Positions 1-14,189 of a DNA stretch of 64,000 nucleotides are shown piece by piece; position 1 is the first letter of the stretch; every line of letters starts with the position of its first letter. The translations under genes were made by a program, and so were the position numbers. Under the pieces are notes generated by a model that did no database searches, was not told the origin of the DNA, and saw nothing but the letters and a program-made list of their open reading frames with translations. The DNA is from an uncultured Rhodospirillales bacterium (GTDB taxonomy: Bacteria > Pseudomonadota > Alphaproteobacteria > RF32 > CAG-239). Location of the stretch: contig CACWQT010000006.1 of NCBI GenBank assembly GCA_902763185.1, positions 1 to 64,000 of the forward strand, given 5' to 3'.

Positions 1-804
1 TTGAGGTGCGAAGCACCGAGATTAGGGGGCTTCAATGTTGTCACGCCCCACAAGTGGGGACTTTGAGAGCAAAAAGTGTCCGGTGGACAGTTTTTGCCGC
101 GAAGCATCAGCTGTTGTTAATTTGCGCTCCGCTGAAAGCGGAAAAGCGCAAATGTTACAACAACTTGGGAGACCGCGCAGTTGGCAAGCGTGAAACGCGA
201 GCCTTACGAAGCAAGTAAGGAGGGGCTTATACTTCCTTATAATTAATCGGAAGATCCCTTATCCTCACTTCGTTCGGAGGGATGACAGTAAAAAACGCGC
301 GATTCGGAGGGATGATGGTAAAAAACGTGGCGTTCGGAGGGATGACTCCAGTGTCTTCTCCCCCTTGACGCACCTTGAGAACCGGCACTTACCCTATCTC
401 CCCCTTGACGGGGGAGATGGCGGCGGAGCCGGCAGAGAGGGTGAAACCTATGTAGCTGACATCTCCCCCGTCTGAGGGGGAGATAGAGTAAATGCCGAAC
501 CTCTAAAGTCTCCTCCCCCTTATGAGCCACACATAGGTGTGGCAAATAACTAGAGGGGGGAGAATTAAGGTGGGGGTGGCAAATATCGCTTAATAAACAT
601 CACCCTCTCTGTCACCTTCGGCGACATCTCCCCCGTCTGAGGGGGAGATAGAATTTCAGCGATTTTTCAGACTCACTTCCCGACAACTTTTAAGGCGGGA
701 AATTTTGCGAAATAACCTCAGAAGTCCTGCCCTAAAGCGGAGCTTACATAGAGGTAAGTGAGTATTTAGGGACAGGCTTCCTTCTGCGGATTAGTTCACA
801 AAAT
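1..804. repeat. Gene-free repeat region upstream of rlmE 3' end
   Basis: No credible gene is seen here; the open frames are low-complexity translations of repeats. Positions 1-64 plus 223-290 match, in inverted orientation, a composite repeat at about 40983-41130. Relative to that copy there is an extra stretch of about 160 bases (64-222) containing three hairpins, one of them terminator-like (AAAAGTGTCC / GGACAGTTTTT, near 79-103). Positions 260-350 hold three imperfect copies of a 'TTCGGAGGGATGA' unit. Positions 390-655 hold several hairpins of the form ATCTCCCCC / GGGGGAGAT. Positions 697-804 belong to a long imperfect palindrome described separately. Confidence 0.7.
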
Positions 805-812
805 TTACCCCT
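697..812. repeat. Long imperfect palindrome, family with 56835-56950
   Basis: The ends AAATTTTGCGAA and TTCACAAAATTT are inverted copies. Inside them lie nested stems (CCTGCCCTAAA / TTTAGGGACAGG) and an apical TTACATAGAGGTAA hairpin. The same end sequences flank a different interior at 56835-56950. The rlmE stop codon (805-807) lies inside the right end, so the element sits exactly at the 3' end of rlmE and could act as its 3' hairpin. Confidence 0.75.
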
Positions 813-1497
813 TAAAAGATAGAGCGACGACGTAGGTCTCCGGCGACTTATCCCTACTGGCATCCGGCTTATAGTGCGAAACTTTTTTAAAATGTTGCTT
901 CATGTCTGAAAGGAGCTCGCCCTCTGCCCCGCCCTGAAACACTTTGGCAATAAACACACCATTTTCGGCTAGCACGGTTTTGGCAAATTCGTATGCCGCC
1001 TCAACCAGACCGATGGTGCGCAGATGATCGGTCTGCTGATGACCGGTGGTATTGGCCGCCATATCACTCATCACCACGTCGGCACGTTCCCCGTGGAGAA
1101 GCTCTAAAAGCTTTTCGGTAGCCCCATCCGCGGTAAAATCTTGGCAGACAAAAGTTGCGCCGCTCAAAGGCTCGGTCGGGAGAATATCAAGACCGACCAA
1201 ACACCCTGTTCCTTTAAGGTATGATGCGGCAATCTGCGACCATCCGCCGGGGGCACACCCCAAATCGACAATCACTTTGTTTTTGGCAAGGAATTTATAT
1301 TTTTCATTGAGCTGAATAAGCTTAAACGCCGCCCGTGAACGATAACCGCGCTCTTTAGCTTCTGCCACATAAGGGTCATTTAACTGCCGCTCTAACCAAC
1401 GGTTAGAAGATGATGAGTGATAACGCCCGTCTTTAAGCCTGACGGCAAGCATTTTCCGCCCGCGCACTTCTTTTGCTGATTTTGTTAACTTTGCCAT
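805..1497 (-). CDS. rlmE: 23S rRNA (uridine-2552 2'-O) methyltransferase RlmE/FtsJ
   Basis: This 230-residue protein has the RlmE/FtsJ family fold and usual length. The enzyme methylates the 2'-OH of U2552 in the 23S rRNA A-loop, using S-adenosylmethionine, late in 50S assembly. The SAM-binding motif VDLGCAPGGWSQ lies near residues 78-88. The catalytic K-D-K-E tetrad is visible as K59, D145 (in SDMAANTTG), K185 (in IAKVFQGG) and E220 (in SPETY). It is transcribed alone, divergent from the HD-domain gene; about 140 bases separate the starts. Its stop codon falls inside a dispersed palindrome. Identification is secure. Confidence 0.96.
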   Translation of the reverse strand: MAKLTKSAKEVRGRKMLAVRLKDGRYHSSSSNRWLERQLNDPYVAEAKERGYRSRAAFKLIQLNEKYKFLAKNKVIVDLGCAPGGWSQIAASYLKGTGCLVGLDILPTEPLSGATFVCQDFTADGATEKLLELLHGERADVVMSDMAANTTGHQQTDHLRTIGLVEAAYEFAKTVLAENGVFIAKVFQGGAEGELLSDMKQHFKKVSHYKPDASRDKSPETYVVALSFKG

Positions 1498-1639
1498 ATA
1501 AACCTACTCTCTTTAACAATTTATTTTAAGCTACACAGAGCACCTCAAATATGCAAGCATTTTTTATTGCAAAATATTTGCACATCTTAATCAAAAATTC
1601 ACTCCTTTGGGTTTATGGTCATCGGATAAGGAACAGATA

Positions 1640-2461
1640 ATGAGAGAAGATTTTTTAGCATTCAAACAATATTACCGCGAGGCGGTTGCCAAAGTGCCGG
1701 CAGACGCGTTTTACCGCCAAACCATTAACCATAAATTTAAGCACTCGATAGAAGTTTTGCATATCGGGCAGACCATATTAAAAGAAACGCCGGAACTAAA
1801 GAAAAAATCCGCGGCGTTCAAACAGCGCGCGGAAACGGCTCTTTTGTTTCACGATGTCGGACGCTTTGAAGAAGCCGCCCTGCAGTATGCGGATGAAAGC
1901 CAAAACAAAGCCGTTTCGGCCACAACAAATACTTATGACCACGGCTTAATCGGTTACAATCTCTTAAAGGAAAACAAAAAATATAACGACCAACGTATTC
2001 TTTTTGCCCTGAAATGGCATGGCAAAACGACCGCCGCAATTGAAGCTTCCCAAGATTGGTGCGAGGCCGCCAAAGAGCCGCATTTTAATGAGTTAAAACA
2101 AATCCTCTTTTTGGTGCGTGATGCTGATAAATTGGCAAATCTTTACCATATCAAAACCGATAATCATTTAGAGAAAGATTTGTTTTACCGACAACTGACA
2201 AAAGAGGCGTTAAACGCACCGTTATCCCCCGCCGTGCTTGATGATTTTTATCAAAAAAGCACTGTTTTGTTTCCGCATGTTTATTCGTTTGCTGACCGCG
2301 TATTGATGGTAATTTCATGGATATTTGACTTAAATTACGAAACATCAAAAAAAATATTCAAACAAAACGCTTATGATGTCTTCCTCATAAAACTTCTCAA
2401 GAAATACCACAAAAACACCGCCGATATTGCTGAAATTAAGCAATTTATCAAAAATCCTTAA
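1640..2461 (+). CDS. HD-domain phosphohydrolase-like protein
   Basis: This 273-residue protein has an HD-type metal-dependent phosphohydrolase pattern: H35 (KHSIEVLHI), the HD pair at 71-72 (LLFHDVGRFEE), a further DHG at about 100-102, and a late Asp in LVRDADKLANLY (about 161). HD enzymes hydrolyse nucleotides, phosphate monoesters or cyclic nucleotides; the substrate here cannot be read from sequence. I chose the ATG at 1640 because AAGGAA lies seven bases upstream; an in-frame TTG at 1607 has no ribosome site. The stop is nine bases before the next membrane protein, so the two are probably co-transcribed. Confidence 0.8.
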   Translation: MREDFLAFKQYYREAVAKVPADAFYRQTINHKFKHSIEVLHIGQTILKETPELKKKSAAFKQRAETALLFHDVGRFEEAALQYADESQNKAVSATTNTYDHGLIGYNLLKENKKYNDQRILFALKWHGKTTAAIEASQDWCEAAKEPHFNELKQILFLVRDADKLANLYHIKTDNHLEKDLFYRQLTKEALNAPLSPAVLDDFYQKSTVLFPHVYSFADRVLMVISWIFDLNYETSKKIFKQNAYDVFLIKLLKKYHKNTADIAEIKQFIKNP

Positions 2462-2470
2462 GGAGGCAAT

Positions 2471-3355
2471 ATGTGGTTATTTTTTGCACTCATCACCAGT
2501 TTACTTTATGCCTTTTACCACCTCTGCAACCAATTAAGTTCGTTAAAAGCTGAGCTTTTTATCATTTACCGAGGGCTTTTGATTGCACTGATTGCCACCC
2601 CGTTCATGTTGATGACTTTTCATATTTTTCCGTGGCAATTTTATGCAATAGTCGTCTTTCAAGGTGTGACCATATCTTATATGGATTTCAAATATTATCA
2701 GGCTTTTCACCGATTCGGAGCTGAAAACGTCAACTCTATCCGACCGCTGACCGTGTTAATCACTTTTATCTTATGGCTCATCTTGAGACCAAGCACCTTA
2801 CTTGTCTATTACCACGCCCCGCTACGCGCCCTGATTATCTTGCTGGCACTGATGGCAATCGTTTTTGCCGTGATGAAATATCAAAACCAAAAAATCGGTC
2901 GTGACAGCTTAAAATTTGTTGTGCCTTTATTAGTTCTGTCCTCCCTCATAGACATGAGCAATAAAGTCATCACCGAATATAATGACGGTCTTTTACTTCC
3001 GCTGACATTTCATCGCGTAGCCTTAACCGGTTGGATTATCGGCAGTATCAACCTTTTTTTAAACCGTCAATATCTAACCCACCCCAAAGAGCTCATCAAT
3101 TTTGGAAATATCCGCCGTGCCGGCTTTTTAATCCTGCTTATTTTAAGTATGATAACCATCAACTTTTCAATGCACTACACCACACATCCGGCATATACAT
3201 CAGCAATTACCTATTTATCGGTAATTTGGCTTGTCATCATCAACAAATGCCGCGCTGCTATGGGCAAAAAATCTGCTTATCAAAGCATTGACTTAAAATG
3301 GATATTGCTCCTGCTTGCTGCTACCATAACACTGGCACTCGCCACCACATTATAA
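2471..3355 (+). CDS. Drug/metabolite-transporter-like (EamA-type) membrane protein
   Basis: This 294-residue protein is almost entirely hydrophobic, with about ten predicted membrane helices from residue 1 to the C terminus, the size and layout of the DMT/EamA superfamily. It would sit in the inner membrane and export or exchange small metabolites; no substrate can be assigned. A strong AGGAGG lies just before the ATG, overlapping the end of the HD-domain gene, so the two form a tight pair. The helix pattern supports a transporter, but EamA signature residues are weak, so a different polytopic family is possible. Confidence 0.65.
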   Translation: MWLFFALITSLLYAFYHLCNQLSSLKAELFIIYRGLLIALIATPFMLMTFHIFPWQFYAIVVFQGVTISYMDFKYYQAFHRFGAENVNSIRPLTVLITFILWLILRPSTLLVYYHAPLRALIILLALMAIVFAVMKYQNQKIGRDSLKFVVPLLVLSSLIDMSNKVITEYNDGLLLPLTFHRVALTGWIIGSINLFLNRQYLTHPKELINFGNIRRAGFLILLILSMITINFSMHYTTHPAYTSAITYLSVIWLVIINKCRAAMGKKSAYQSIDLKWILLLLAATITLALATTL

Positions 3356-3374
3356 AAAATTTTAAAAACGCCTA

Positions 3375-3403
3375 TTGACAGATAGACAAAAATATGTTAC
3401 ATA
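3375..3403 (+). promoter_or_regulatory. Sigma70-like promoter of the interrupted exported-protein gene
   Basis: TTGACA (3375-3380), a 17-base spacer and TACATA (3398-3403) lie 33 bases before the ATG at 3437, with GGAGG at about 3425. Confidence 0.6.
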
Positions 3404-3436
3404 GGAGATGTCATTAACAACCTATGGAGGAATTTT

Positions 3437-4423
3437 ATGGATGACGACCCTGTCCCACGAAGTTTTAAGGGACACACTTATGTTCGTAACTTTATTACGA
3501 GCACTTTATTAATGGCGGCTTTGGCTGCCGAGGCACAAGAGAAAACCGTGCCTCAAGCAAATGAGGATAATGATCCTAAAACAACAATCACTGTTGGGGC
3601 AAATAATATTGCCGCTCTGACAATTGAAAAAGAAACAACTTGCTTTTATAACAATCTCACCCCTCAGTTTAGCGCCCGCGCTAAAGATGACAAAGGTAAC
3701 TATGCTGAAATTTCGGGCTTAGAAATGTTAATTCTAAATAATTCTAAGTTTACCCCGATTACGGCAAAGTTCATGGCAGAACTCGGTCACCAACTGGGTA
3801 ATGGCGCAACCATTGTCTTCAAAGCCGGTCGTGCGCCGACAGAGGGTGATAAGGTTTTTGATAACGCTTTGAGTTACTACGCAGACGCGTTTGACGCCGG
3901 TGTGTTCGGTAACGTGGCAGAACGTATCGTTTTCGGTTACACCAAAGACGATAACTTTATCGAGCTCGGTATCATCGGAACCAACGGTGAAGGTATTTAT
4001 GTAATACCTAACCCGAAACACGCCGATTTCTGGGCAAAGAGCGGTATCAGTTTGTTACAAAAAAGCGGTGTTAAACTTTCCATGACCGGTGCCACCCGTT
4101 TAGGTAGCGAAGCTAAAGAGCTAATTGCCTCTTTACGCTTGCAAACCAATTCTGGATTTGGTGCTTTGGCCATGGTAAATCACGACTTTAAAAATCATCA
4201 AACCAACTTGAACTTACGCGCTTGGCAAGATTTCATCTCCGGATGAAAAGCAGTCGCCGAAACCGTTGTATCAAAAGATAAAGACTTATCGGTCCGTTGC
4301 GGTATCGGCAAAAACGGAGTGCAATTCTCTGTTCACTTTAACAAGGCTCACCAAAGCCCTGCCCAAGTCGGTATGACTGTATCAACTTATCTCGCACGTT
4401 CTAAAATCGTGCATAGGAGGTAA
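3437..4423 (+). pseudogene. Exported protein gene interrupted by an in-frame TGA
   Basis: A reading frame with a good ribosome site (GGAGG) encodes 269 residues, then meets TGA at 4244-4246. It continues in the same frame for 58 more codons to TAA at 4421-4423, and the extension keeps the same composition. A signal-peptide-like stretch (FITSTLLMAALAAEA, about residues 19-33) suggests export. The mature part is rich in Gly, Asn and alternating hydrophobic residues, compatible with beta strands, but no family was recognised. Other genes in the window use TGA as a real stop, so the simplest reading is a nonsense mutation; leaky readthrough is an alternative. The first 269 residues may still be made. 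Confidence 0.6.
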
Positions 4424-4589
4424 CTAAAAGCAGGCATAACTAAACCCCATCGGGAAAAGGGCAATGCTCCTAAAAATCGCTTAAACCTATTAAATGCGAT
4501 ACGCCCGAACTGTGCCCTTTTTCCAAAACTTACGAGATTTAAGAAACACATTTTTTGATTAAAAACAATTTATTAGAAAGGAATTTAAA

Positions 4590-5483
4590 ATGAATACAAA
4601 CAATTTACATTTTTTCTTAGGGGGTAACGACCTTGAGATGAAAACCATTAAAGATTTACTGGATAAACAAGGCGTAGCATATAGCGATGCCGGTTTAAGC
4701 TGGGGCGCTTCAACCTCAAAATACGGCGATGAAATAAGCGAAGTTGCCGCCTCCGGCAAAACCCCGGTTATCGTGGAGTTAGCGGTTGATTCTAAATTGC
4801 CGGAAAACACCATTAACGTTGACCACCATAACGAAAATTCCGATAAGCCGGCTTCTATTTTGCAGGTCTGCGAGCTGTTAGGTGTTGAGCCGACAAGAAA
4901 AATGCAACTTGTTGCCGCCAATGATAGCGGTTATATACCGGCAATGATGGCTATGGGCGCATCTGAAACAGAGATTAACGCGATACGTTATCAAGACCGT
5001 GCCACCCAAGGCATTACCCTTGAACAAGAAGAACAGGCAGAATTTGCCCTTCAACACACAAAAGAAATGTATGGCGTTACCGTTGTGATGTTAAAACACT
5101 CCAAAACGGCAACCGTAACCGACCGCTTGTTTGATGAAACCAAGCCGCAAAACTTGTTGATTATCTCTCAAGATGGCGAAACCAACTACTTCGGTCCGGA
5201 AGATATTTGCCGCAAGTTGCAAGGTAACAAAGTCGGTGAACGCCCTGCCCCGTGGGACCCGAATCAAACCGAAGTTTTATATGACCACTTCGGAGGTTGG
5301 ACCGGTGGTGCAGGACTCGGTCAAAAGGGCGGCACAGCCTTCTGGGGCGGATATGCCGACCAAAAAGAAATCTTAAAGTTTGTCATAAAAGAAAACTTTG
5401 AAAAACAACAAGACAAAACCGCAACATCACAAATGGACGTTGCCGCACTTAAAGCCTTAACCGACTTTAAGTTTGAGAAATAA
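4590..5483 (+). CDS. DHH-phosphoesterase-like protein, paralogue A
   Basis: This 297-residue protein carries the motif series of a divergent DHH-family phosphoesterase: GGND near residues 11-14, a hydrophobic strand ending in Glu (VIVELAVD, 60-67), the diagnostic INVDHHN (75-81), and VAANDSG (108-114). A Gly-rich GGWTGGAGLGQKGG segment lies near the C terminus, where DHHA1-type domains carry a GG substrate-binding loop. DHH enzymes cleave nanoRNA, single-stranded DNA, cyclic dinucleotides, pyrophosphate or related phosphoesters; the substrate here is unknown. The start has AAAGGA upstream. Its ends are almost identical in DNA to those of paralogue B while the middle has diverged. It belongs to an accessory block with a KH-domain gene. 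Confidence 0.6.
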   Translation: MNTNNLHFFLGGNDLEMKTIKDLLDKQGVAYSDAGLSWGASTSKYGDEISEVAASGKTPVIVELAVDSKLPENTINVDHHNENSDKPASILQVCELLGVEPTRKMQLVAANDSGYIPAMMAMGASETEINAIRYQDRATQGITLEQEEQAEFALQHTKEMYGVTVVMLKHSKTATVTDRLFDETKPQNLLIISQDGETNYFGPEDICRKLQGNKVGERPAPWDPNQTEVLYDHFGGWTGGAGLGQKGGTAFWGGYADQKEILKFVIKENFEKQQDKTATSQMDVAALKALTDFKFEK

Positions 5484-5497
5484 CCGATAAGACCTAC

Positions 5498-5527
5498 TCA
5501 GTCGCGTGTTCAACGCACGCGGCTGAG
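5498..5527 (+). repeat. Hairpin after DHH-like paralogue A
   Basis: CTCAGTCGCGTG pairs with CACGCGGCTGAG around a short loop, with one G-U pair. There is no T-tract, so it is not a classical terminator. Closely related hairpins follow the genes ending at 6317 and 7324. Confidence 0.75.
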
Positions 5528-5549
5528 AGAAATATAAAGGAGAAAGAAA

Positions 5550-6317
5550 ATGGATATTTTAAAATTTTTACGATTAAAAAATCATACTCAAGCACAGGAT
5601 ACTGTTGAAGCAGACATCCCGACAAATGAGTCTGAAGATACTTCACCTCAATCGTTATTTCAAAAAGATTGCTTAAATGCACAAGAAACATCGCATATAA
5701 GAACAGATATCTTAAATCTGACCCAATACAAAGATACTCTGATTATAAAAAGCGAAGCTACAGATAACAAAAATCCGCTTTCAACAAACGTGGGAAAATA
5801 TTTCATGACACAAAATGACATTGGGCCGCACCGCCCGCCAAGAGAATACTCTACCGATAATGCCGTAAATCATTTTGGAAAAGAAAGATTTGCCAGCCAA
5901 AAATGTTGTATTTGGGACTTTGTTAATCAACAGTCAGAAGAAGTACTTCTCTCAATTATCATAAACAGAGGCTATATTGAAACCCCAAATTATGTAACTG
6001 ATACAATCAATAGCGCTGGCTTAAACCCTGTTCAATGGTCAGGCACACAAACCGTATATTGTCACATGACACAATCCCCCATGACTAAAGTTTCTTTCAT
6101 TCAAAGAAACAAACTTTTAGCAGAATATGATTTTGAAGCTCATGATGACGTTGTCGATTTGGCAAAAAAATTATCTAAAACGGCTCAGTCTAAAGAGGGA
6201 TATATCAAATTTTTCAACAGATTTGTTGTCACCAAAGAAGACATCAAACAACATCATGAACGAGAACTTGATAAAAACATCGCAAAATTCTTAGCCGATT
6301 TTGCTAATAAGAAATAA
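5550..6317 (+). CDS. Hypothetical protein between the two DHH-like paralogues
   Basis: I do not recognise this 255-residue protein. It is predicted soluble: no signal peptide or membrane helix is seen. The first 55 residues are acidic and Ser/Thr-rich and look disordered. A compact region follows (about 95-235) with FGKERFASQKCCIWDFVNQ and VQWSGTQTVYCHM, then a charged helical C terminus (VTKEDIKQHHERELDKNIAKFLADF). It starts after AAAGGAG and lies between two hairpins of the same family as those behind its neighbours. The location suggests a shared role with the DHH-like proteins, but nothing in the sequence gives a reaction. Confidence 0.7.
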   Translation: MDILKFLRLKNHTQAQDTVEADIPTNESEDTSPQSLFQKDCLNAQETSHIRTDILNLTQYKDTLIIKSEATDNKNPLSTNVGKYFMTQNDIGPHRPPREYSTDNAVNHFGKERFASQKCCIWDFVNQQSEEVLLSIIINRGYIETPNYVTDTINSAGLNPVQWSGTQTVYCHMTQSPMTKVSFIQRNKLLAEYDFEAHDDVVDLAKKLSKTAQSKEGYIKFFNRFVVTKEDIKQHHERELDKNIAKFLADFANKK

Positions 6318-6328
6318 TATTGAAAGCA

Positions 6329-6362
6329 CTCTCAGCCGTGTGCCAAAACACGCGGCTGAGAG
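6329..6362 (+). repeat. Hairpin after the hypothetical gene
   Basis: CTCTCAGCCGTGTG pairs with CACGCGGCTGAGAG around a six-base loop. It shares the CGCGGCTGAG right arm with the hairpins at 5498 and 7338. Confidence 0.75.
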
Positions 6363-6377
6363 ATAATCCGATTTTTA

Positions 6378-6417
6378 TTGCAGAAACACCAAAATTATGG
6401 TATATTACACGTGTAAT
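6378..6417 (+). promoter_or_regulatory. Promoter with a palindromic operator candidate
   Basis: TTGCAG (6378-6383), 17 bases and TATATT (6401-6406) form a sigma70-like promoter. A perfect 14-base palindrome, ATTACACGTGTAAT (6404-6417), overlaps the -10 box and the expected start point, a classic repressor position. The -35 box and spacer are identical to those of the KH-gene promoter at 7385, but that copy lacks the palindrome. Confidence 0.65.
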
Positions 6418-6451
6418 TCAATAATTTTATTTATTTGAGAGGAGAGAAAAT

Positions 6452-7324
6452 ATGGAAAACAAAAACAATTTACACTTTTTCTTAGGGGGTAACGACCTTG
6501 AGATGAAAACCATTAAAGATTTACTGGAAAAACAAGGCGTAGCATATAGCGATGCTAATTTGGGTTGGTGGAACGCAAATGTATCTTCTTATGAAGAGGA
6601 AATTAAGAAAGTTGCCACTGAAGGCAAGACACCTGTCATTGTTGAATTAGCAACAGAAGATGACAAAGGTAATCCGCTCATGACATTGCCAGATAATACA
6701 ATAAATATTGACCATCACAATAAAAACGCTGGAAGATCTGCTTCTATCTTACAAATTTGTGACTTACTCGGTGTTGAACCGACAAGACGTGATTTATTAG
6801 TTGCCGCCAATGATGTCGGTATGGCAAAGGCTATGCGTGAAATGGGGGCAACCGAAACAGAAATTAACAAAATCCGTTACCAAGACCGAGCTTGCCAAGG
6901 AATTACACCGGAGCAAGAAGAACAGGCCATAGAAGCTCTTAGCTCAGCAAAGGAAATCGGCGGTATCTTATTTGTTACATGTGAACACTCCAAAACAGCA
7001 ACTATTCTTGACCGCTTAGATAGAGACCAATATCCTGATGTTTTCATGTATTCAAGATCGGATAAAGAAATCAATTTCAGCGGTGACGGATATATTTGTG
7101 CAAAATTAGTTGAGAAGTTTCCTCATCCGTATAATTTTTCCGGTGGCAACGGCTTTGGTAAAAAAGGCGAAATGGCCTACTGGGGAGGAAGTTATGCCGA
7201 TGTCAAAGAAGCGGCAAAGTTTGTCATAAAAGAAAACTTTGAAAAACAACAAGACAAAACCGCAACACCACAAATGGACGTTGCCGCACTTAAAGCCTTA
7301 ACCGACTTTAAGTTTGAGAAATAA
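6452..7324 (+). CDS. DHH-phosphoesterase-like protein, paralogue B
   Basis: This 290-residue paralogue has the same motif order as copy A: GGND (12-15), VIVEL (62-66), INIDHHN (84-90) and VAANDVG (117-123), plus a Gly-rich FSGGNGFGKKGEMAYWGG segment near the C terminus. The first 95 or so bases and the last 110 coding bases plus the 3' hairpin are nearly identical to copy A, whereas the central coding part is clearly diverged. That is the pattern of gene conversion at the ends or of module exchange. It has its own promoter and a GAGGAG ribosome site. Retention of all DHH-type acidic and His residues suggests both copies are active. Confidence 0.6.
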   Translation: MENKNNLHFFLGGNDLEMKTIKDLLEKQGVAYSDANLGWWNANVSSYEEEIKKVATEGKTPVIVELATEDDKGNPLMTLPDNTINIDHHNKNAGRSASILQICDLLGVEPTRRDLLVAANDVGMAKAMREMGATETEINKIRYQDRACQGITPEQEEQAIEALSSAKEIGGILFVTCEHSKTATILDRLDRDQYPDVFMYSRSDKEINFSGDGYICAKLVEKFPHPYNFSGGNGFGKKGEMAYWGGSYADVKEAAKFVIKENFEKQQDKTATPQMDVAALKALTDFKFEK

Positions 7325-7337
7325 CCGATAAGGCCTA

Positions 7338-7367
7338 CTCAGTCGCGTGTTAACACACGCGGCTGAG
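7338..7367 (+). repeat. Hairpin after DHH-like paralogue B
   Basis: CTCAGTCGCGTG / CACGCGGCTGAG, nearly the same sequence as the hairpin at 5498, including about 15 bases on its 5' side. Confidence 0.75.
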
Positions 7368-7384
7368 CGCTTGTCCAAATTTTA

Positions 7385-7413
7385 TTGCAGAAACACCAAA
7401 ATTATGGTAAAAT
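7385..7413 (+). promoter_or_regulatory. Sigma70-like promoter of the KH-domain gene
   Basis: TTGCAG (7385-7390), 17 bases and TAAAAT (7408-7413). The -35 box and the whole spacer match the promoter at 6378 exactly, so both genes probably answer to the same polymerase input, differing at the start site. Confidence 0.65.
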
Positions 7414-7442
7414 GCATACTGAAAATAAACGAGGAGAAGAAA

Positions 7443-9425
7443 ATGGAAAACAAACTATACCAAATTGCCGACGGTTGTTACATTAGTGAACAAAAGAACT
7501 TTGAAAATGATCAATACTTTTCCGTTTACGAAGCAGATGGAAAACATTGGGAACATTTTTATTTACATTGTGATAAATCAAGCGAGCATATCATTATCAA
7601 AGAAGAAGATTTAAATAATGCCGTTAAAGCTATTTATCCGAAACGCAATTTTTTAACAGAAGACATCATGAAATATCTCACAGAAAAGGTTAACGACGCC
7701 AAACCAGCTGATGCCCCCAATGCCCAAATCCTTAAACTTGATAAGATTGATGGCTCTGCCGCATACTATTTATCCGATAAATACCACACACTAAAACCTG
7801 TTAAATTTTTACATGAAAATTTGTCTTTAGAAGATCCAAAAACAATAGAAAAAATTTTGGCATACAGTCAAATAGACTGGCCTGTTATCAACGCAACCAG
7901 TAAACAACTTGCGGCTAAAATGGAGGCGCGAGGATATGAGCTAGAACACAGAGGACGCAGTGGATTTGAAAGCCGCAACTCTATTGTTATCAAAACCAAA
8001 GACGGTATTCTAACGCCTGAAATTGCACAAAAAATGCAACAAGATTTAGAACAAGCTAAACTAGAATGTAAACAAGATAAAATAAAGGCCTTTGATGAGT
8101 ATTTTGATGAGCAATCAACTGATAAATCAAAAGTTTATGCCGTTGTAGAAACCGGTTATAATTATGACCAGACACGCATCATTGATGAGAATAAATACGA
8201 GCGTGTTGCTCAAATCCGCACCGGTTGCACAAAAGACCATCGTCAAGGCTACGACCACATTTATTCTGAACTTCTTATCAATAAAGAACGTATTAAAGAA
8301 GATAAGCGCAAATTTATTGTGCTTGAAGTTCCAAAAGACATGATGGGCTTAATTATCGGTAAAGGTGGAAGCAACATTAAAGCCTTACAACAAAAATTTG
8401 GTAAACGCTTTAATGTGGTGCAAGACCCAAGAGAGATTGAATCCGAAAAGAAACAGGCTGAAGAAGAGCGAAAAAGACAGCGTAAATCTGACCTGCAAAC
8501 ACTTCAGGATAATATCAAAAATTTCATTGGTGAAAACTATCTTGTTGCCGATAACGACAGCATTGCCGTGTCTATGGTTGAATACATCAATACCAACAAA
8601 GATAAACTGCGGTTTTCACCAAACGCTGATGAACTGCAACAGATGAAAGATAATCTGATTAAAGAGCGCGATGAAGAAATTGAGCGCGAAAATCGCCGTA
8701 AAGCAGAGGAAATCGAACAACAAAAACGCTTAGAAGAAGAGCGCATCGCCGAACAAAAACGTCTTGAGCAGGAAAAAATTACTGAGATAACCCAAACCGT
8801 TAAAACGCATATTCAAACATATGCCGATGAACATTCCGGCGCGGTTATTTCCAATGAGGATTTCATCAAATTCCTCCGCGATACTTATCAAGAAGATGAA
8901 CTGACACAAAAAGTTTTAGCGCCGGTTCAAAAAGACTTCCTCTTAAAAATGGAAGAAGAACGCGCGATGCAACAACGATTTGCCGAAGCCGAGAAAAACT
9001 TTGAAAAAGTTGCCGCAGAAGAGTTTAAGAAATTCTTTGCCGACGATGACGCAACAGAAGGCTATGGAGAAGAGTTTTTCTACAGCAGCTTTATGAACCG
9101 CAACCAAAGAAGCAGTCGGGGTGATAGATATACACAAATCAGTAACGATATTGCTCGCCGTCTTAAAATTTATGATGACTTGCAAAAAGCCCCTGAAAAC
9201 AGGCTTCTTACAAATTGGCCAGCACCAGATAAAATCGGTCACGGCGATTACCCCAAGTATGATTTTTCATCCCGCGTTCGGGATTTTGAAGCAGCACATC
9301 GGGAAGACGGAACATTTTCTAAACCGATAGAACCTCAAGAACCCGTCAAAGAAGAGCCGGCACCGGAGCCGACCATAGAAAACTTAGCTATGTTGTGGGG
9401 CGCCAAAAAGGGTAAACTGAAATAA
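7443..9425 (+). CDS. KH-domain, coiled-coil protein
   Basis: This 660-residue protein has no family I can name as a whole. A type I KH RNA-binding motif is clear near residues 290-335: hydrophobic strand KFIVLEVP, then GLIIGKGGSNIKALQQKFG with the GxxG loop as GKGG (about 306-309). Just after it comes a long Glu/Lys/Arg/Gln-rich coiled coil (about 330-450), and a second charged helical region follows (about 490-540). The C terminus is Pro/Glu-rich, then AMLWGAKKGKLK. The N-terminal 280 residues look folded but are unfamiliar. I start it at the ATG after GAGGAG; an upstream in-frame start lies inside the preceding hairpin. A terminator follows. RNA binding is well supported, the biological role is not. 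Confidence 0.7.
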   Translation: MENKLYQIADGCYISEQKNFENDQYFSVYEADGKHWEHFYLHCDKSSEHIIIKEEDLNNAVKAIYPKRNFLTEDIMKYLTEKVNDAKPADAPNAQILKLDKIDGSAAYYLSDKYHTLKPVKFLHENLSLEDPKTIEKILAYSQIDWPVINATSKQLAAKMEARGYELEHRGRSGFESRNSIVIKTKDGILTPEIAQKMQQDLEQAKLECKQDKIKAFDEYFDEQSTDKSKVYAVVETGYNYDQTRIIDENKYERVAQIRTGCTKDHRQGYDHIYSELLINKERIKEDKRKFIVLEVPKDMMGLIIGKGGSNIKALQQKFGKRFNVVQDPREIESEKKQAEEERKRQRKSDLQTLQDNIKNFIGENYLVADNDSIAVSMVEYINTNKDKLRFSPNADELQQMKDNLIKERDEEIERENRRKAEEIEQQKRLEEERIAEQKRLEQEKITEITQTVKTHIQTYADEHSGAVISNEDFIKFLRDTYQEDELTQKVLAPVQKDFLLKMEEERAMQQRFAEAEKNFEKVAAEEFKKFFADDDATEGYGEEFFYSSFMNRNQRSSRGDRYTQISNDIARRLKIYDDLQKAPENRLLTNWPAPDKIGHGDYPKYDFSSRVRDFEAAHREDGTFSKPIEPQEPVKEEPAPEPTIENLAMLWGAKKGKLK

Positions 9426-9440
9426 TCAAAATCCCAAACA

Positions 9441-9479
9441 AAAAACGGCTGAGTCACTTAAGACTCAACCGTTTTTTTT
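9441..9479 (+). terminator. Rho-independent terminator after the KH-domain gene
   Basis: AACGGCTGAGTC / GACTCAACCGTT hairpin followed by eight T. Its left arm again contains CGGCTGAG, the sequence shared by the three upstream hairpins. Confidence 0.9.
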
Positions 9480-9496
9480 ATACACATAACACCATC

Positions 9497-10651
9497 TTAG
9501 TAGCGGTAGCAAATTCTTCCGGTACACTGAGCGATATACGCCTCAAACCACTTGGGCTCGTTTCTGTAAAACAGCTCGGTCAGCGCCCGAATATGAAGCG
9601 GCTCACCGCTCTCAAAGCGTGCCATAACAGCATTTTCATCACCTTTTGCCATCAATTCAATGTCCTCCTGCGCCTCCTCATAGAGGAATGTATCCGTATA
9701 AGGTAGGCCAATAAACACTTTTGACATGACCTCATAGTCAAGCTCAGGAGCCTTAATGAGAGCCGATAAGAAATGGTCTTGCGGCAAAAAATGCGTGTTC
9801 TTCCAATTCTTAACATAAGCCGACAGCAACTCGTGACGTTTCTCCTTATCCGGATAGCATGCCAACAGGTTCTCTGCCTCCGGACAAATGTAATGATGTC
9901 GCTCAAAATAAAGGATAATATCTTGAACCGAACGATCGTTGAGCAGATCCGCATGCACCTCATCCCACAAACCATAACAACTGATGTAATTTGAAAATGC
10001 CTTAGACGAAACAGTTTCCAACATCAGTTTCTGTCCTAAAACAGGCAGTTCGTGATTCTCTATAAACAGATAGAAAAATGAGTAATCATCACTGTTCCGA
10101 AGTGCGGTAAACAACTCGGTAATCAGCACATTATCTAAGCCATGGCACTTAATATGCGTTGCGATTTCGTCTTTATCCTGACGATCCAAAAGCTTATGCT
10201 GACAGCCTGTGGTAAGACCATGTTGCGAGATATAACGCAAGATTTGCTCATGTGACCACTCATTCAAGATAACCTCCTGCGCTTCTTCGCAAAAGCCTTG
10301 ATAAGCGGTATAAGCACTCACTTCTTCAAACTTATTGCGCTTAACGATGAGAACCTGAATAGAAACCGGCAAGACTGAACCGTAGCCGCGCTCTTTGACC
10401 ATCTCGCCATAACGATAGATCATATACACGATTTCTGTGCTGCTACCACGAGCCATAACCTCTTTCAGCTCATCTTCCGAGAGTTCTGTTACATGCCACT
10501 GCCGAACCGGATACTGATCGTAATCCTGCTCTGTAGAGTAATAACCCGAAACGGTGCTCAATTTTCCCATAATTTCCTGATGGACCTTTTTCTTTTGCCA
10601 TTCGGTAGCATCTTTGGCTACAACGGCGTTTCCTTCATTTTTTTGCTGCAT
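9497..10651 (-). CDS. Helical-repeat protein of unknown function
   Basis: This 384-residue soluble protein is not recognised. It is alpha-helical with loose tandem repeats of roughly 35-40 residues that end in a hydrophobic-Ile-x-x-[His/Cys]-Gly-Leu pattern (RYISQHGL, THIKCHGL, NYISCYGL), suggesting a helical solenoid that binds a partner. The gene at 41997 shows a similar pattern (AYIERCGL), and the two may be distant relatives. Codon choice differs from most neighbours, with more CTG, CAG and GAG. No Shine-Dalgarno site is present: the ATG follows TATAAAATTTTTTAATT, a motif also seen before two other genes here. Confidence 0.65.
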   Translation of the reverse strand: MQQKNEGNAVVAKDATEWQKKKVHQEIMGKLSTVSGYYSTEQDYDQYPVRQWHVTELSEDELKEVMARGSSTEIVYMIYRYGEMVKERGYGSVLPVSIQVLIVKRNKFEEVSAYTAYQGFCEEAQEVILNEWSHEQILRYISQHGLTTGCQHKLLDRQDKDEIATHIKCHGLDNVLITELFTALRNSDDYSFFYLFIENHELPVLGQKLMLETVSSKAFSNYISCYGLWDEVHADLLNDRSVQDIILYFERHHYICPEAENLLACYPDKEKRHELLSAYVKNWKNTHFLPQDHFLSALIKAPELDYEVMSKVFIGLPYTDTFLYEEAQEDIELMAKGDENAVMARFESGEPLHIRALTELFYRNEPKWFEAYIAQCTGRICYRY

Positions 10652-10856
10652 AATTAAAAAATTTTATAGGGTGAATAAATAAAAGAATTTCTAAAACAAA
10701 GCCTTTAAGGAAATAAAACAATAATCCTTAAATGATAGACCAAAATAATGATAAATTATCCCTGTCATATCACTTTTTTTGTCTAAGTCAAGTTTAAATT
10801 GCAACGGCAATAAGGGAAACAAGGTGCCCAAAGTTCTCCACAACCTTTAATCAATC
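10652..10856. other. AT-rich upstream region of the helical-repeat gene
   Basis: No gene is seen. The stretch is AT-rich and should contain the promoter for the minus-strand gene ending at 9497. A short inverted repeat, CCTTTAAGG and CCTTAAA, lies near 10701-10732. I cannot assign a clear -35/-10 pair. Confidence 0.4.
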
Positions 10857-10975
10857 CAGCAATGGGCGCGGAGAGTGCCGGTGCTGGAAGTGAAATTGCG
10901 ACTGCGGCGTACATAAGACACCGTACATAAAGGAGCAAATCTGCAATCATGACGGGTATTATACGCGCCCCCTTG
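10857..10975. repeat. Dispersed palindromic repeat, copy 1 (abuts uvrB promoter)
   Basis: About 115 bases matching 44517-44628. The tips are GGGCGCG and CGCGCCC here, but GGGCTCG and CGAGCCC in the other copy, so both arms changed together. Both copies share AGTGCCGGTGCTGGAAG, TTGCGACTGCGG and AAAGGAGCAAATCTGCAATC. The right tip touches the uvrB -35 box. Confidence 0.8.
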
Positions 10976-11001
10976 ACAACTCTTTCTTTTGTAGATTATA
11001 C
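10973..11001 (+). promoter_or_regulatory. uvrB promoter, likely giving a leaderless mRNA
   Basis: TTGACA (10973-10978), 17 bases and TTATAC (10996-11001). Only eight bases separate the -10 box from the uvrB ATG, so transcription should begin at or within a base or two of the start codon. No Shine-Dalgarno sequence is present. Confidence 0.7.
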
Positions 11002-11009
11002 TCTCGTCC

Positions 11010-13001
11010 ATGAGTAGAGAGTTTCAAGTAAAAAGCCCTTTCGAACCCTCCGGCGACCAACCGGAGGCCATCCGTGAATTGTGCGAAGGATTAAAAAGAG
11101 GCGAAAGAAATCAGGTGTTGTTGGGCGTGACCGGTTCGGGTAAAACTTTCACCATGGCCAAAATTATTGAAACAATGAAAAAACCGACACTGATTATGGC
11201 ACCGAATAAAATTTTGGCAGCGCAACTTTATGCCGAGATGAAAGAATTTTTCCCTAATAATCACGTAGAATATTTTGTATCATATTACGACTATTATCAA
11301 CCGGAAGCCTATATCCCTAAAACCGATACCTATATTGAAAAAGATTCGGCAATTAACGAACAAATAGACCGCATGCGTCACGGCGCAACGCGTAATGTGT
11401 TGGAAGAAAAAGACGTGATTATCGTTGCCTCTGTTTCGTGCATCTATGGCTTAGGCAGTATGGAATCATATTCATCAATGGCTTTTAGTTTAAGCGTCGG
11501 CGATGAAATAGAACCCAAAGAAGTTTATCAAAATTTAGCCAACTTACAATACGAGAGAAATCAGACGAACTTTGTCCGCTCAACGTTCCGCGTCAAGGGC
11601 GATACCTTGGATATTTTTCCGGCACACTATGAAGACCGCGGCTGGCGCGTATCATTCTTTGGTGATGAGATAGAAAAGATAACCGAATTTGATGTGTTGA
11701 CCGGCAAAAAGACCGCAGAGCTGGAGGCAATTACCGTATATCCCGCCAACCACTATGTGACACCGCGCCCTGCCCTGTCACAGGCCATGATGCACATCAA
11801 AGAAGATTTGGCTTTGCGCTTAGAAGAATTAAAAGCGCAAAATAAACTGGTGGAAGCTCAGCGCTTAGAACAACGCACCCGCTTTGATTTGGAGATGATG
11901 GAAACCACCGGTCATTGTAAGGGGATAGAAAACTATTCGCGCTATTTGACCGGACGCGCCCCCGGAGAGCCGCCACCGACCTTATTTGAGTATTTCCCGA
12001 AAGACGCATTACTGTTTATTGATGAGAGCCATATCTCCGTGCCGCAAATCGGCGGGATGTATCGCGGCGACCGCAACCGCAAAACCACACTGGCAGATTA
12101 TGGCTTCAGATTGCCTTCCTGCGTTGATAATCGTCCTTTAAAGTTTGAGGAGTGGGATAAATTCCGCGCGCCGACGATTTTTGTTTCCGCCACCCCCGGC
12201 GATTGGGAGTTGCAACAAAGCAAAGGCGTATTTGCCGAGCAGGTTATCCGCCCGACCGGACTGATGGACCCGATTTGCGTGGTTAAACCGGTAGAAAATC
12301 AGGTTGATGATTTGATGGAAGAATGTCGCCAAACCATTGCCAAAGGTAATCGAGTTCTGGTCACAACGCTTACCAAAAAAATGGCGGAAGATTTAACCGA
12401 ATATCTTAAAGAAAACGGAATTAAGGTGCGTTACCTGCACTCAGATGTGGATACCATGGAACGCATTGAGATTATCCGCGATTTACGCCAAGGTGTGTTT
12501 GATGTTTTGGTCGGCATTAACCTGTTGCGTGAGGGGTTGGATATACCGGAATGTTCATTGGTGGCAATTTTAGATGCCGATAAAGAGGGCTTTTTGCGTT
12601 CCACCCGTTCACTCATCCAAACTATCGGACGCGCCGCTCGAAATGCGGAAGGAAAAGTTGTGCTATACGCCGATAAGATGACTGATTCCATCAAAGCCGC
12701 CTTAGATGAAACCGAGCGCCGTCGCAAAAAACAGTTTGAATATAACTTGGCGCATAACATCACCCCGCAAACCATTAAAAAGGCAATTTCCAATACACTT
12801 TTGACCATGACCGAAGCCGATGATGACAAAGCAGCCTCGCCTGATACACCGAGCATCAAAGACTTAAAGAACATTGATAAAGAGATTAAACGCTTAACCA
12901 AAGAAATGAAAGCTTATGCGGCAGATCTGGAATTTGAAAAAGCAATGAAGTGTCGCGATGAAATCAAACGCTTAGAAACCGCCCGCCTCACCATAGAGTA
13001 A
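11010..13001 (+). CDS. uvrB: Excinuclease ABC subunit B
   Basis: This 663-residue protein is full-length UvrB, the damage-verification helicase of nucleotide excision repair; it receives DNA from UvrA and recruits UvrC. The Walker A motif GVTGSGKT is at 39-46. The beta-hairpin region with [12 protein letters not shown] follows near residues 92-105. The helicase motifs DESH and QTIGRAARN lie further on, and a C-terminal UVR motif ([13 protein letters not shown]) provides the UvrC contact. The start matches the family N terminus ([11 protein letters not shown]). The gene stands alone, with its own promoter and a likely leaderless transcript. uvrA is at 53605 in the same window. Confidence 0.98.
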
Positions 13002-13002
13002 A

Positions 13003-13040
13003 AAAACAGGCTGCTTTTTAAGATAAAGCAACCCGTTTAT
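13003..13040. terminator. Bidirectional terminator between uvrB and lolA
   Basis: ACAGGCTGCTTT pairs with AAAGCAACCCGT. On the minus strand the hairpin is followed by seven T, so it best serves lolA; the plus-strand tail is weaker. Confidence 0.65.
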
Positions 13041-13060
13041 TCATAAAACAGTAAACAAGA

Positions 13061-13678
13061 CTATTTCCGCTTATTATATTTCTTTTTGCTTTCAGTGCGT
13101 TTGCTGAACTTAAACAAATCTTCACTTAGCTTACCGTCAACCACCGTATCATACAGAGATAACGAAACCTCCAAAGATTGCGGCGTAATAACTTTCCATT
13201 GTTTTAACTCAAACGGAGAATTGGAAAAGACCAAAGTAAACGGCCCCAAATCACCGGAATTGTTATATTTCAAGCTCATTCTTGTCATACCGGGGTCTTT
13301 CGTAAAATCGGTTACTTTCAAATCCTTACCGATTTTAACCGTATTGGCCAAAACCATGGCCGCCGGAATATCATCATAATCGATATTGGTCACCTGATCC
13401 AATTCTTTGTCATAATAAACAATGTAATCCCCGTTACCGACAATCAACACATTTGACGGCGCTTTATACTCCATCCGGATTTTATTGGGCTTTTCCACAT
13501 AAATATGCCCTTCCACCTGTTCACCGTTAGATGCAATCTGGATAAAATCAGCCGACAAGGTTTTAATGGAATTCAAATAATTTTCCACCTTAGAAACATC
13601 TTCTTTACTTGCTGAAGCCGCATGCGCCTCTAACGCGACAAACAATCCGCACAAAATTGTTAAAATTACCTTTTTCAT
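13061..13678 (-). CDS. lolA: Outer-membrane lipoprotein carrier protein LolA
   Basis: This 205-residue periplasmic chaperone carries lipoproteins released by the LolCDE transporter across the periplasm to the outer membrane. A signal peptide (MKKVILTILCGLFVALEAHA) leads into a mature domain with the LolA pattern: LSADFIQ, then VEGHIYVEKPNKIRMEY and LIVGNGDYIVYYDKEL. I use the ATG at 13678 because it gives a clean signal peptide; the longer frame starts have none. The C terminus is Lys/Arg-rich (RTESKKKYNKRK), which is a little unusual. lolD and a lolC/E gene lie at 35548-37549, so the pathway is split across the window. Confidence 0.88.
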   Translation of the reverse strand: MKKVILTILCGLFVALEAHAASASKEDVSKVENYLNSIKTLSADFIQIASNGEQVEGHIYVEKPNKIRMEYKAPSNVLIVGNGDYIVYYDKELDQVTNIDYDDIPAAMVLANTVKIGKDLKVTDFTKDPGMTRMSLKYNNSGDLGPFTLVFSNSPFELKQWKVITPQSLEVSLSLYDTVVDGKLSEDLFKFSKRTESKKKYNKRK

Positions 13679-13751
13679 CTTATTTCCCATTGAATTACTT
13701 TTGCCCCTAATGTATGTTGCAACCGACAATTTTTCAAGCGGTTTTTCGCGT

Positions 13752-14189
13752 TTAATCCCAAGGGAACACAACCCACGTATCGGCACTAACGCCTTCCTTA
13801 ACACAAAAATCCGGTTGCTCTTGGCAACAAGTTTTCTTCAACAAGGTACAATACTTTGCCAACGGATATTTGCTTCTGAGATATTTAATCGTCGCTCCGC
13901 TATCTGCCACATCATCAATAACATAAACGCTGTCCGCATCAAAAAGTTCATCTGTAGAAATATCTTCTATTTCACCGCGCTGATGATTGTTATCATACGA
14001 CATCAACTTCACCACTCTGACATCACGAATATCAAGCTTGTAGGCAATCAATTGTGTTGGAATAAGACCGCCGCGCGACACTGCCACCAAAGTTATTCTC
14101 GATAAATTCGGACAATCTTTGACAATTTCATCTGCCAAATCATGACTCCACTGCACGATGTCTTCCCATTTAAGATACTGCTTTCCCAT
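13752..14189 (-). CDS. gpt: Purine (xanthine-type) phosphoribosyltransferase
   Basis: This 145-residue type I phosphoribosyltransferase joins a purine base to PRPP for nucleotide salvage. The PRPP-binding motif VYVIDDVADSGAT is intact, and the pyrophosphate loop appears as VAVSRGGLIP. The length, the WEDIVQWSHDLADEI N terminus and the C-terminal WVVFPWD agree with the Gpt (xanthine-guanine) branch, though hypoxanthine or another base is possible. The ATG at 14189 is preceded by AAAGG; an upstream TTG at 14222 is less likely. It lies between lolA and a membrane glycosyltransferase-like gene, all on the minus strand. Confidence 0.82.
   Translation of the reverse strand: MGKQYLKWEDIVQWSHDLADEIVKDCPNLSRITLVAVSRGGLIPTQLIAYKLDIRDVRVVKLMSYDNNHQRGEIEDISTDELFDADSVYVIDDVADSGATIKYLRSKYPLAKYCTLLKKTCCQEQPDFCVKEGVSADTWVVFPWD

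Follow-up and report, generated by a model that had tools for sequence, protein, structure and literature searches.

NrN-family phosphodiesterases of a CRISPR-free branch lie beside a KH-domain protein in an uncultured Rhodospirillales bacterium

We examined a block of four genes near the start of a 64-kb stretch of DNA ("the window": positions 1 to 64,000 of contig CACWQT010000006.1, assembly GCA_902763185.1) from an uncultured Rhodospirillales bacterium, a relative of gut alphaproteobacteria. In the window's list of open reading frames (ORFs), the four genes run in the same direction across 4590-9425 (Table 1). We call them DHH1, the orphan gene, DHH2 and the KH gene. As explained below, DHH1 and DHH2 are assigned to the NrN family of phosphodiesterases, and the two NrNs and the KH protein likely work together outside of CRISPR (clustered regularly interspaced short palindromic repeats) systems, on a molecule like SAM-AMP (S-adenosylmethionine linked to adenosine monophosphate) or on the end of an RNA. 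SAM-AMP is an alarm signal against viruses, and CRISPR systems employ NrN-family enzymes to degrade it.

Table 1. Genes, protein domains and hairpins of the block, in window coordinates.
Feature	Position	Strand	Description
DHH1	4590..5483	+	NrN-family phosphodiesterase (predicted), 297 amino acids; INVDHHN
Hairpin after DHH1	5497..5527	+	no T run; z -6.0
Orphan gene	5550..6317	+	255 amino acids, between the paralogues
Hairpin after orphan gene	6329..6362	+	same arms; no T run; z -7.25
DHH2	6452..7324	+	NrN-family paralogue (predicted), 290 amino acids; INIDHHN
Hairpin after DHH2	7338..7367	+	same arms; no T run; z -6.0
KH protein	7437..9425	+	662 amino acids; start at ATG 7437
RSG module of KH protein	7860..8081	+	about residues 142-215; motif GRSGFESRN
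KH domain	8319..8435	+	residues 295-333; GKGG loop at 8358-8369
Terminator-like hairpin after KH gene	9440..9477	+	T run; z -7.3

A first-pass annotation of the window had noticed two paralogues with an IN[VI]DHHN motif next to a protein with the GKGG loop of KH domains, and the ORFs and homology searches confirm this. DHH1 and DHH2 are 61% identical to each other as proteins, and their matches to the DHH models of PADLOC are far above chance (5.4e-66 and 9.7e-56, respectively). Both match a solved structure of NrN over the catalytic domain (2e-31 and 4.3e-30), and the predicted structure of DHH1 has the NrN fold over the full length. The suspected DHH-type active site is present in both alignments: E16, D78-H79-H80 and D112 of DHH1 are the counterparts of E21, D85-H86-H87 and D119 in the solved NrN, as are E17, D87-H88-H89 and D121 of DHH2, and the residues that were tested in NrN are conserved in both proteins. 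Neither paralogue matched Pfam's DHH or DHHA1 models, or any other Pfam family up to E = 1. The overall fold and the DHH-type site are held in common with DHH/DHHA1 phosphodiesterases (PggH, NanoRNase A, GdpP, Rv2837c, PAP phosphatase and RecJ). By alignment, and for DHH1 also by predicted fold, the paralogues are members of the NrN family, so the idea that they represent an unrecognised type of DHH protein does not hold. The genome has these two NrN genes and no further ones.

The two copies also differ in places. DHH2 has AANDVGMAK where DHH1 has AANDSGYIP, and the GNKVGERPAPWDPN segment of DHH1 is absent from DHH2. The specificity of DHH2 may have shifted, and, given the altered loop, the two copies may share out the work. 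At the DNA level, DHH1 (4593-5510) and DHH2 (6458-7351) form a mosaic, and the high identity at the 3' end extends into the hairpin. Because both ends are 91-93% identical while the middle is 74% identical, the ends were probably exchanged by recombination, as after gene conversion.

The KH protein comprises an N-terminal domain, an RSG module, the KH domain, a long helical part and a conserved C-terminal tail, in that order. The proposed KH domain is well supported: the Pfam model KH_1 (PF00013) matches it with E = 3.8e-9 (36.6 bits, above the curated cut-off of 21.5), and a profile of the family matched KH chains from the PDB (8.7e-7). Like other KH_1 proteins, it has a GxxG-type KH domain, in this case with a GKGG loop; unlike them, its KH domain is short, with the RSG module before it and the long helical part after it. 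The RSG module is present in one or two copies in relatives of the KH protein, and we found no clear solved relative for it. In the mechanically made ORF list, the KH gene begins at GTG 7347. We prefer the ATG at 7437 because 7347 falls within a hairpin; this ATG is also preceded by a GAGGAG-like ribosome site. In five genomes of the genus (loci L053, L056, L058, L060 and L061), a KH relative of 711-722 amino acids always lies beside the same 355-amino-acid protein, with no NrN nearby.

The link between KH and DHH genes is borne out by co-occurrence, by adjacency and by a natural fusion. Across a family of 152 genomes, NrN was found in 29, the KH protein in 13, and both in 9 (P = 4.4e-5, one-sided Fisher exact test; the genomes are related and hence not independent samples, and the window's genus accounts for 8 of the 13 with KH). 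In six of the nine genomes with both (G000, G006, G030, G115, G124 and G132), NrN and KH lie within about 1.3 kb of each other on the same contig, while in the other three (G005, G008 and G010) they are on different contigs. Excluding the window's cluster, 5 of 20 KH clusters equal an NrN cluster exactly in the size of their longest contig, versus two near misses within 20 bases (among the 120 of 343 NrN clusters that were listed), which suggests that KH and NrN clusters share contigs. The fusion, in L086, is a one-frame protein of 901 amino acids with NrN at about residues 54-317 and a KH module at about 705-901. A search with that KH module found 19 proteins, and 9 of them begin with an NrN domain (E of 2.5e-32 or lower for the best stretch). 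In this species, too, the NrNs and the KH protein are probably partners.

In L078, one frame has NrN after KH, but it may be artefactual or a product of decay, because its NrN is broken off. The same locus (L078:7259-13720) has four NrN stretches within 6.5 kb, and it shares similar neighbours with L190:2671-5739, namely a protein of about 300 amino acids and another of 228-249 amino acids. Also, P0156, a relative of the KH module, has a tryptophan at a conserved glycine, as would be expected if UGA encodes glycine in its lineage. UGA is read as glycine in Gracilibacteria and SR1.

In passages of four papers, enzymes that cleave SAM-AMP are treated as parts of CRISPR loci or of phages (PMC10600005, PMC12255297, PMC11229360, PMC12669027). 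The genome that contains the window is 1.58 Mb and is given as 100% complete, and it has no match to the palm domain of Cas10 (PF22335). This model matched in 41 of 108 relatives, at 32 bits or less in all but G098 (110 bits); the low-scoring matches are probably GGDEF cyclases. Similarly, RAMP (PF03787) had no match in this genome or in any of the 29 NrN-bearing genomes of the family, and the control G098 gave three. No CorA was found among the window ORFs around the block. Unlike the type III-B CRISPR systems with CorA and NrN, the block has no CorA, Cmr or Cas10 nearby, and a KH partner takes the place of CorA. Judged by its gene content, the block is not a CRISPR locus.

To place the window's NrNs, we used 80 of the 108 NrN-encoding places from a scan of named genomes, and a tree of 95 rows, whose bootstrap is not fully settled. 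One branch (support 99/98) comprises 40 NrN rows, including both window copies, and CorA, Cas10, Cmr and Cas1 were undetected in their loci. Outside this branch are 55 rows: one or more of the four genes were detected for 45 of them, and none for the remaining 10. The 40 CRISPR-free rows represent 27 loci, of which 20 have at least 10 kb of total flank and 15 have at least 3 kb on each side, so for some loci cut contigs could conceal CRISPR links. According to the record titles, the members are alphaproteobacteria (several from gut or rumen samples), several Patescibacteria and one bin named archaeal. One row, in L078, has lost the DHH motif. Besides forming a separate clade, these NrNs differ from those of CorA/NrN systems in their second domain: H170, S171, A174, D195 and W252-G254 (DHH1 numbering) are conserved in the CRISPR-free group but are not common to the CRISPR-linked group (37 of the 40 rows were compared). 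In the literature covered, which leaves out most subscription journals, we came across neither a CRISPR-free clade of NrN nor a fusion of NrN with KH. On SAM as an initiating nucleotide, only an unrelated review turned up, and no paper naming entry 9LQA was found.

The neighbours of other CRISPR-free NrNs suggest what the substrate might be. Directly upstream of NrN, and on the same strand, G005, G008, G054 and the L088 genome each have a gene that encodes about 200 amino acids (L055:5560-6168, L057:6649-7251, L059:4875-5504 and L088:8203-8793), and the NrNs paired in this way form a four-row subclade (100/100). The protein matches SAM lyase (9lqd, 2.4e-5) and SAM-AMP lyase (9gad, 2.9e-5; with a profile, 1.3e-5), and PADLOC labels it Mvol_0529-fam (2e-9). 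It keeps equivalents of W64, C66 and E71 of the T-loop and of Q108 and T110 of the B-loop (the B-loop stretch is aligned at low confidence), while T112 is replaced by serine. According to PMC12255297, W64 and C66 are not conserved in SAM lyase, and full lyase activity requires E71 and Q108, while C66A is nearly normal. The same paper indicates that NrN and the lyase substitute for each other on one substrate in CRISPR systems. That NrN and a lyase homologue are neighbours without CRISPR raises the likelihood that this branch acts on a SAM-AMP-like substrate. The homologue is a distant match and, at about 200 amino acids, is longer than the SAM-AMP lyase (9gab and 9gad), which has 125-131 residues. 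It may comprise two lyase-like halves: in L055, both halves have one and the same lyase chain as their match (7.8e-4 and 0.017), and the later half of the L059 protein gives 0.8. We do not claim a tandem duplication, as the halves are no more alike than shuffled sequences.

Two genes also recur in conserved order after NrN or NrN-KH (L081:3479-4676 and L086:3257-4340): an unknown protein of about 200 amino acids (1e-23 between the two loci), and then a small protein with a nucleotidyltransferase-like motif, GG-x(9)-D-x-D (mutual E of about 1e-39). L068 has an adenylyltransferase-like gene (PF04439, 1.1e-5) at the second position after NrN. The motif is loosely defined, and it also matched an NrN (L079) and a 399-amino-acid protein in L125, and no such gene was seen in the window, so we set aside a nucleotidyltransferase as the maker of the signal; it is suggestive only.

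The remaining features of the block suggest narrower boundaries than the first-pass annotation had drawn. It had proposed a unit of four genes, which is not supported because the second gene is an orphan: of the 57 genomes searched, the 56 others contain no relative of this gene, and its family matches do not rise above chance. This gene is probably not a conserved part of the block. The annotation had also started the interval at 3437, with an ORF (3437-4246) that has 286 residues in the window versus open frames of 346-360 in its relatives from G001, G019 and G030 (three of the same 57 genomes). This frame is stopped early by a TGA at 4244, and in G030 the relative is on contig C12 while NrN is on C26. 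Because the frame is cut early and is unlinked to NrN in G030, we place it outside the block; it looks like a shortened copy of a longer gene, apparently unrelated to the NrNs. TGA is not a sense codon here, as 4 of the window's 40 ORFs of at least 200 amino acids end with it, so we take the TGA at 4244 as an interruption. The three hairpins that follow the first three genes are strong and near-identical. Even when one mismatch is allowed, their 12-base arm is confined to these sites in the window (6 matches, a number that none of 100 shuffles reached). The 64-kb window has no tRNA genes, and Rfam gave no match at gathering score across positions 1-14000.

We propose that the block stands for a CRISPR-free branch of the NrN family, with two phosphodiesterases and a KH protein that would bind RNA and bring the enzymes to their substrate. 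This substrate is likely SAM-AMP itself or a very similar 3'-5' phosphodiester linked to SAM or adenosine, for example the 5' end of an RNA. We hold this explanation with moderate confidence. The complex would be held together by the RSG module and the long helical part. With two metal ions, like other DHH enzymes, NrN would cleave the 3'-5' phosphodiester beside a SAM-type adenosine to give SAM and AMP. A nucleotide signal or an RNA 5' end would be removed, and NrN would be the eraser in a nucleotide pathway that does not depend on CRISPR. Membership in NrN fits the earlier guess that the block acts on a nucleic acid or a signal nucleotide, possibly in defence. That annotation had named two findings that would speak against it, the lack of a DHH-type site and genes that never occur together, and we saw neither. 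Overall, it is partly supported.

Several observations weigh against our proposal. KH is found without NrN in G003, G014, G016 and G031 (the matches in G014 and G031 are partial), and 20 of the 29 genomes with NrN lack KH. The fused NrNs that we tested form a single clade (100/100; P0142 is identical with the L086 protein), so they may go back to a single, old fusion that has persisted. None of the 21 closest KH proteins has NrN, and just 1 of the 378 genomes in the class of L086's genome has the NrN-KH fusion. The match to the lyases is weak (E of about 1e-5 for the whole protein, and 0.012 to 0.031 for the best single stretch); the window's NrNs are in another subclade than the lyase-paired ones, and no lyase homologue was found in the window or in the KH-linked loci that we fetched. 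No SAM-AMP synthase is known here. Finally, the second-domain residues that distinguish CRISPR-free from CRISPR-linked NrNs suggest that the substrate may differ. An account without any role for SAM is general clean-up, in which the pair would act as a nanoRNase or pAp (adenosine 3',5'-bisphosphate) phosphatase, with short RNA or pAp as substrate and RNA fragments supplied by the KH protein. This seems unlikely to us.

NrN is a part of CRISPR defence and matches PADLOC models, its distribution is patchy, with several broken copies, and PMC12255297 proposes phage SAM-AMP lyases as anti-CRISPRs. So NrN might destroy SAM-AMP made by the type III CRISPR systems of competing elements, or NrN and KH might belong to an antiviral system not yet described. 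However, the genome has no detected Cas10 or RAMP to protect or evade. Searches of viral_contigs and phages found no NrN relative, so we reject a phage or mobile origin. (There was also no relative of KH in viral_contigs, nor of the lyase homologue in viral_contigs, phages or plasmids.) Plasmids gave five NrN records. One of these is a weak match, and the other four either are fused to CorA or have Cmr genes next to them; the two that we inspected are CorA fusions beside Cmr genes. We therefore consider a role in defence or counter-defence to be rather unlikely. The block could also be what remains of a type III-B CRISPR system that was lost, and the KH gene could be next to it by chance. Broken or partial NrN copies (in G030, G115, G121, G134 and G165) and the L078 copy without a DHH motif speak for this. 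But the NrNs form a supported clade in which 0 of 40 rows are CRISPR-linked, the catalytic residues are kept (among the 37 rows compared), and the linkage to KH and the fusion recur, which makes relics highly improbable.

A broader form of our proposal is that SAM-AMP or SAM-started RNA serves as a CRISPR-independent signal or cap, and that NrN and KH, along with a SAM-AMP lyase in a sister subclade, are dedicated to erasing this signal or removing this cap in Patescibacteria and gut alphaproteobacteria. This is tentative, and we would sooner doubt it than rely on it. Still, a CRISPR-free clade of NrN that is linked or fused to KH, and that is paired with a lyase homologue in a sister subclade, suggests that SAM-AMP or a similar molecule has a wider life.

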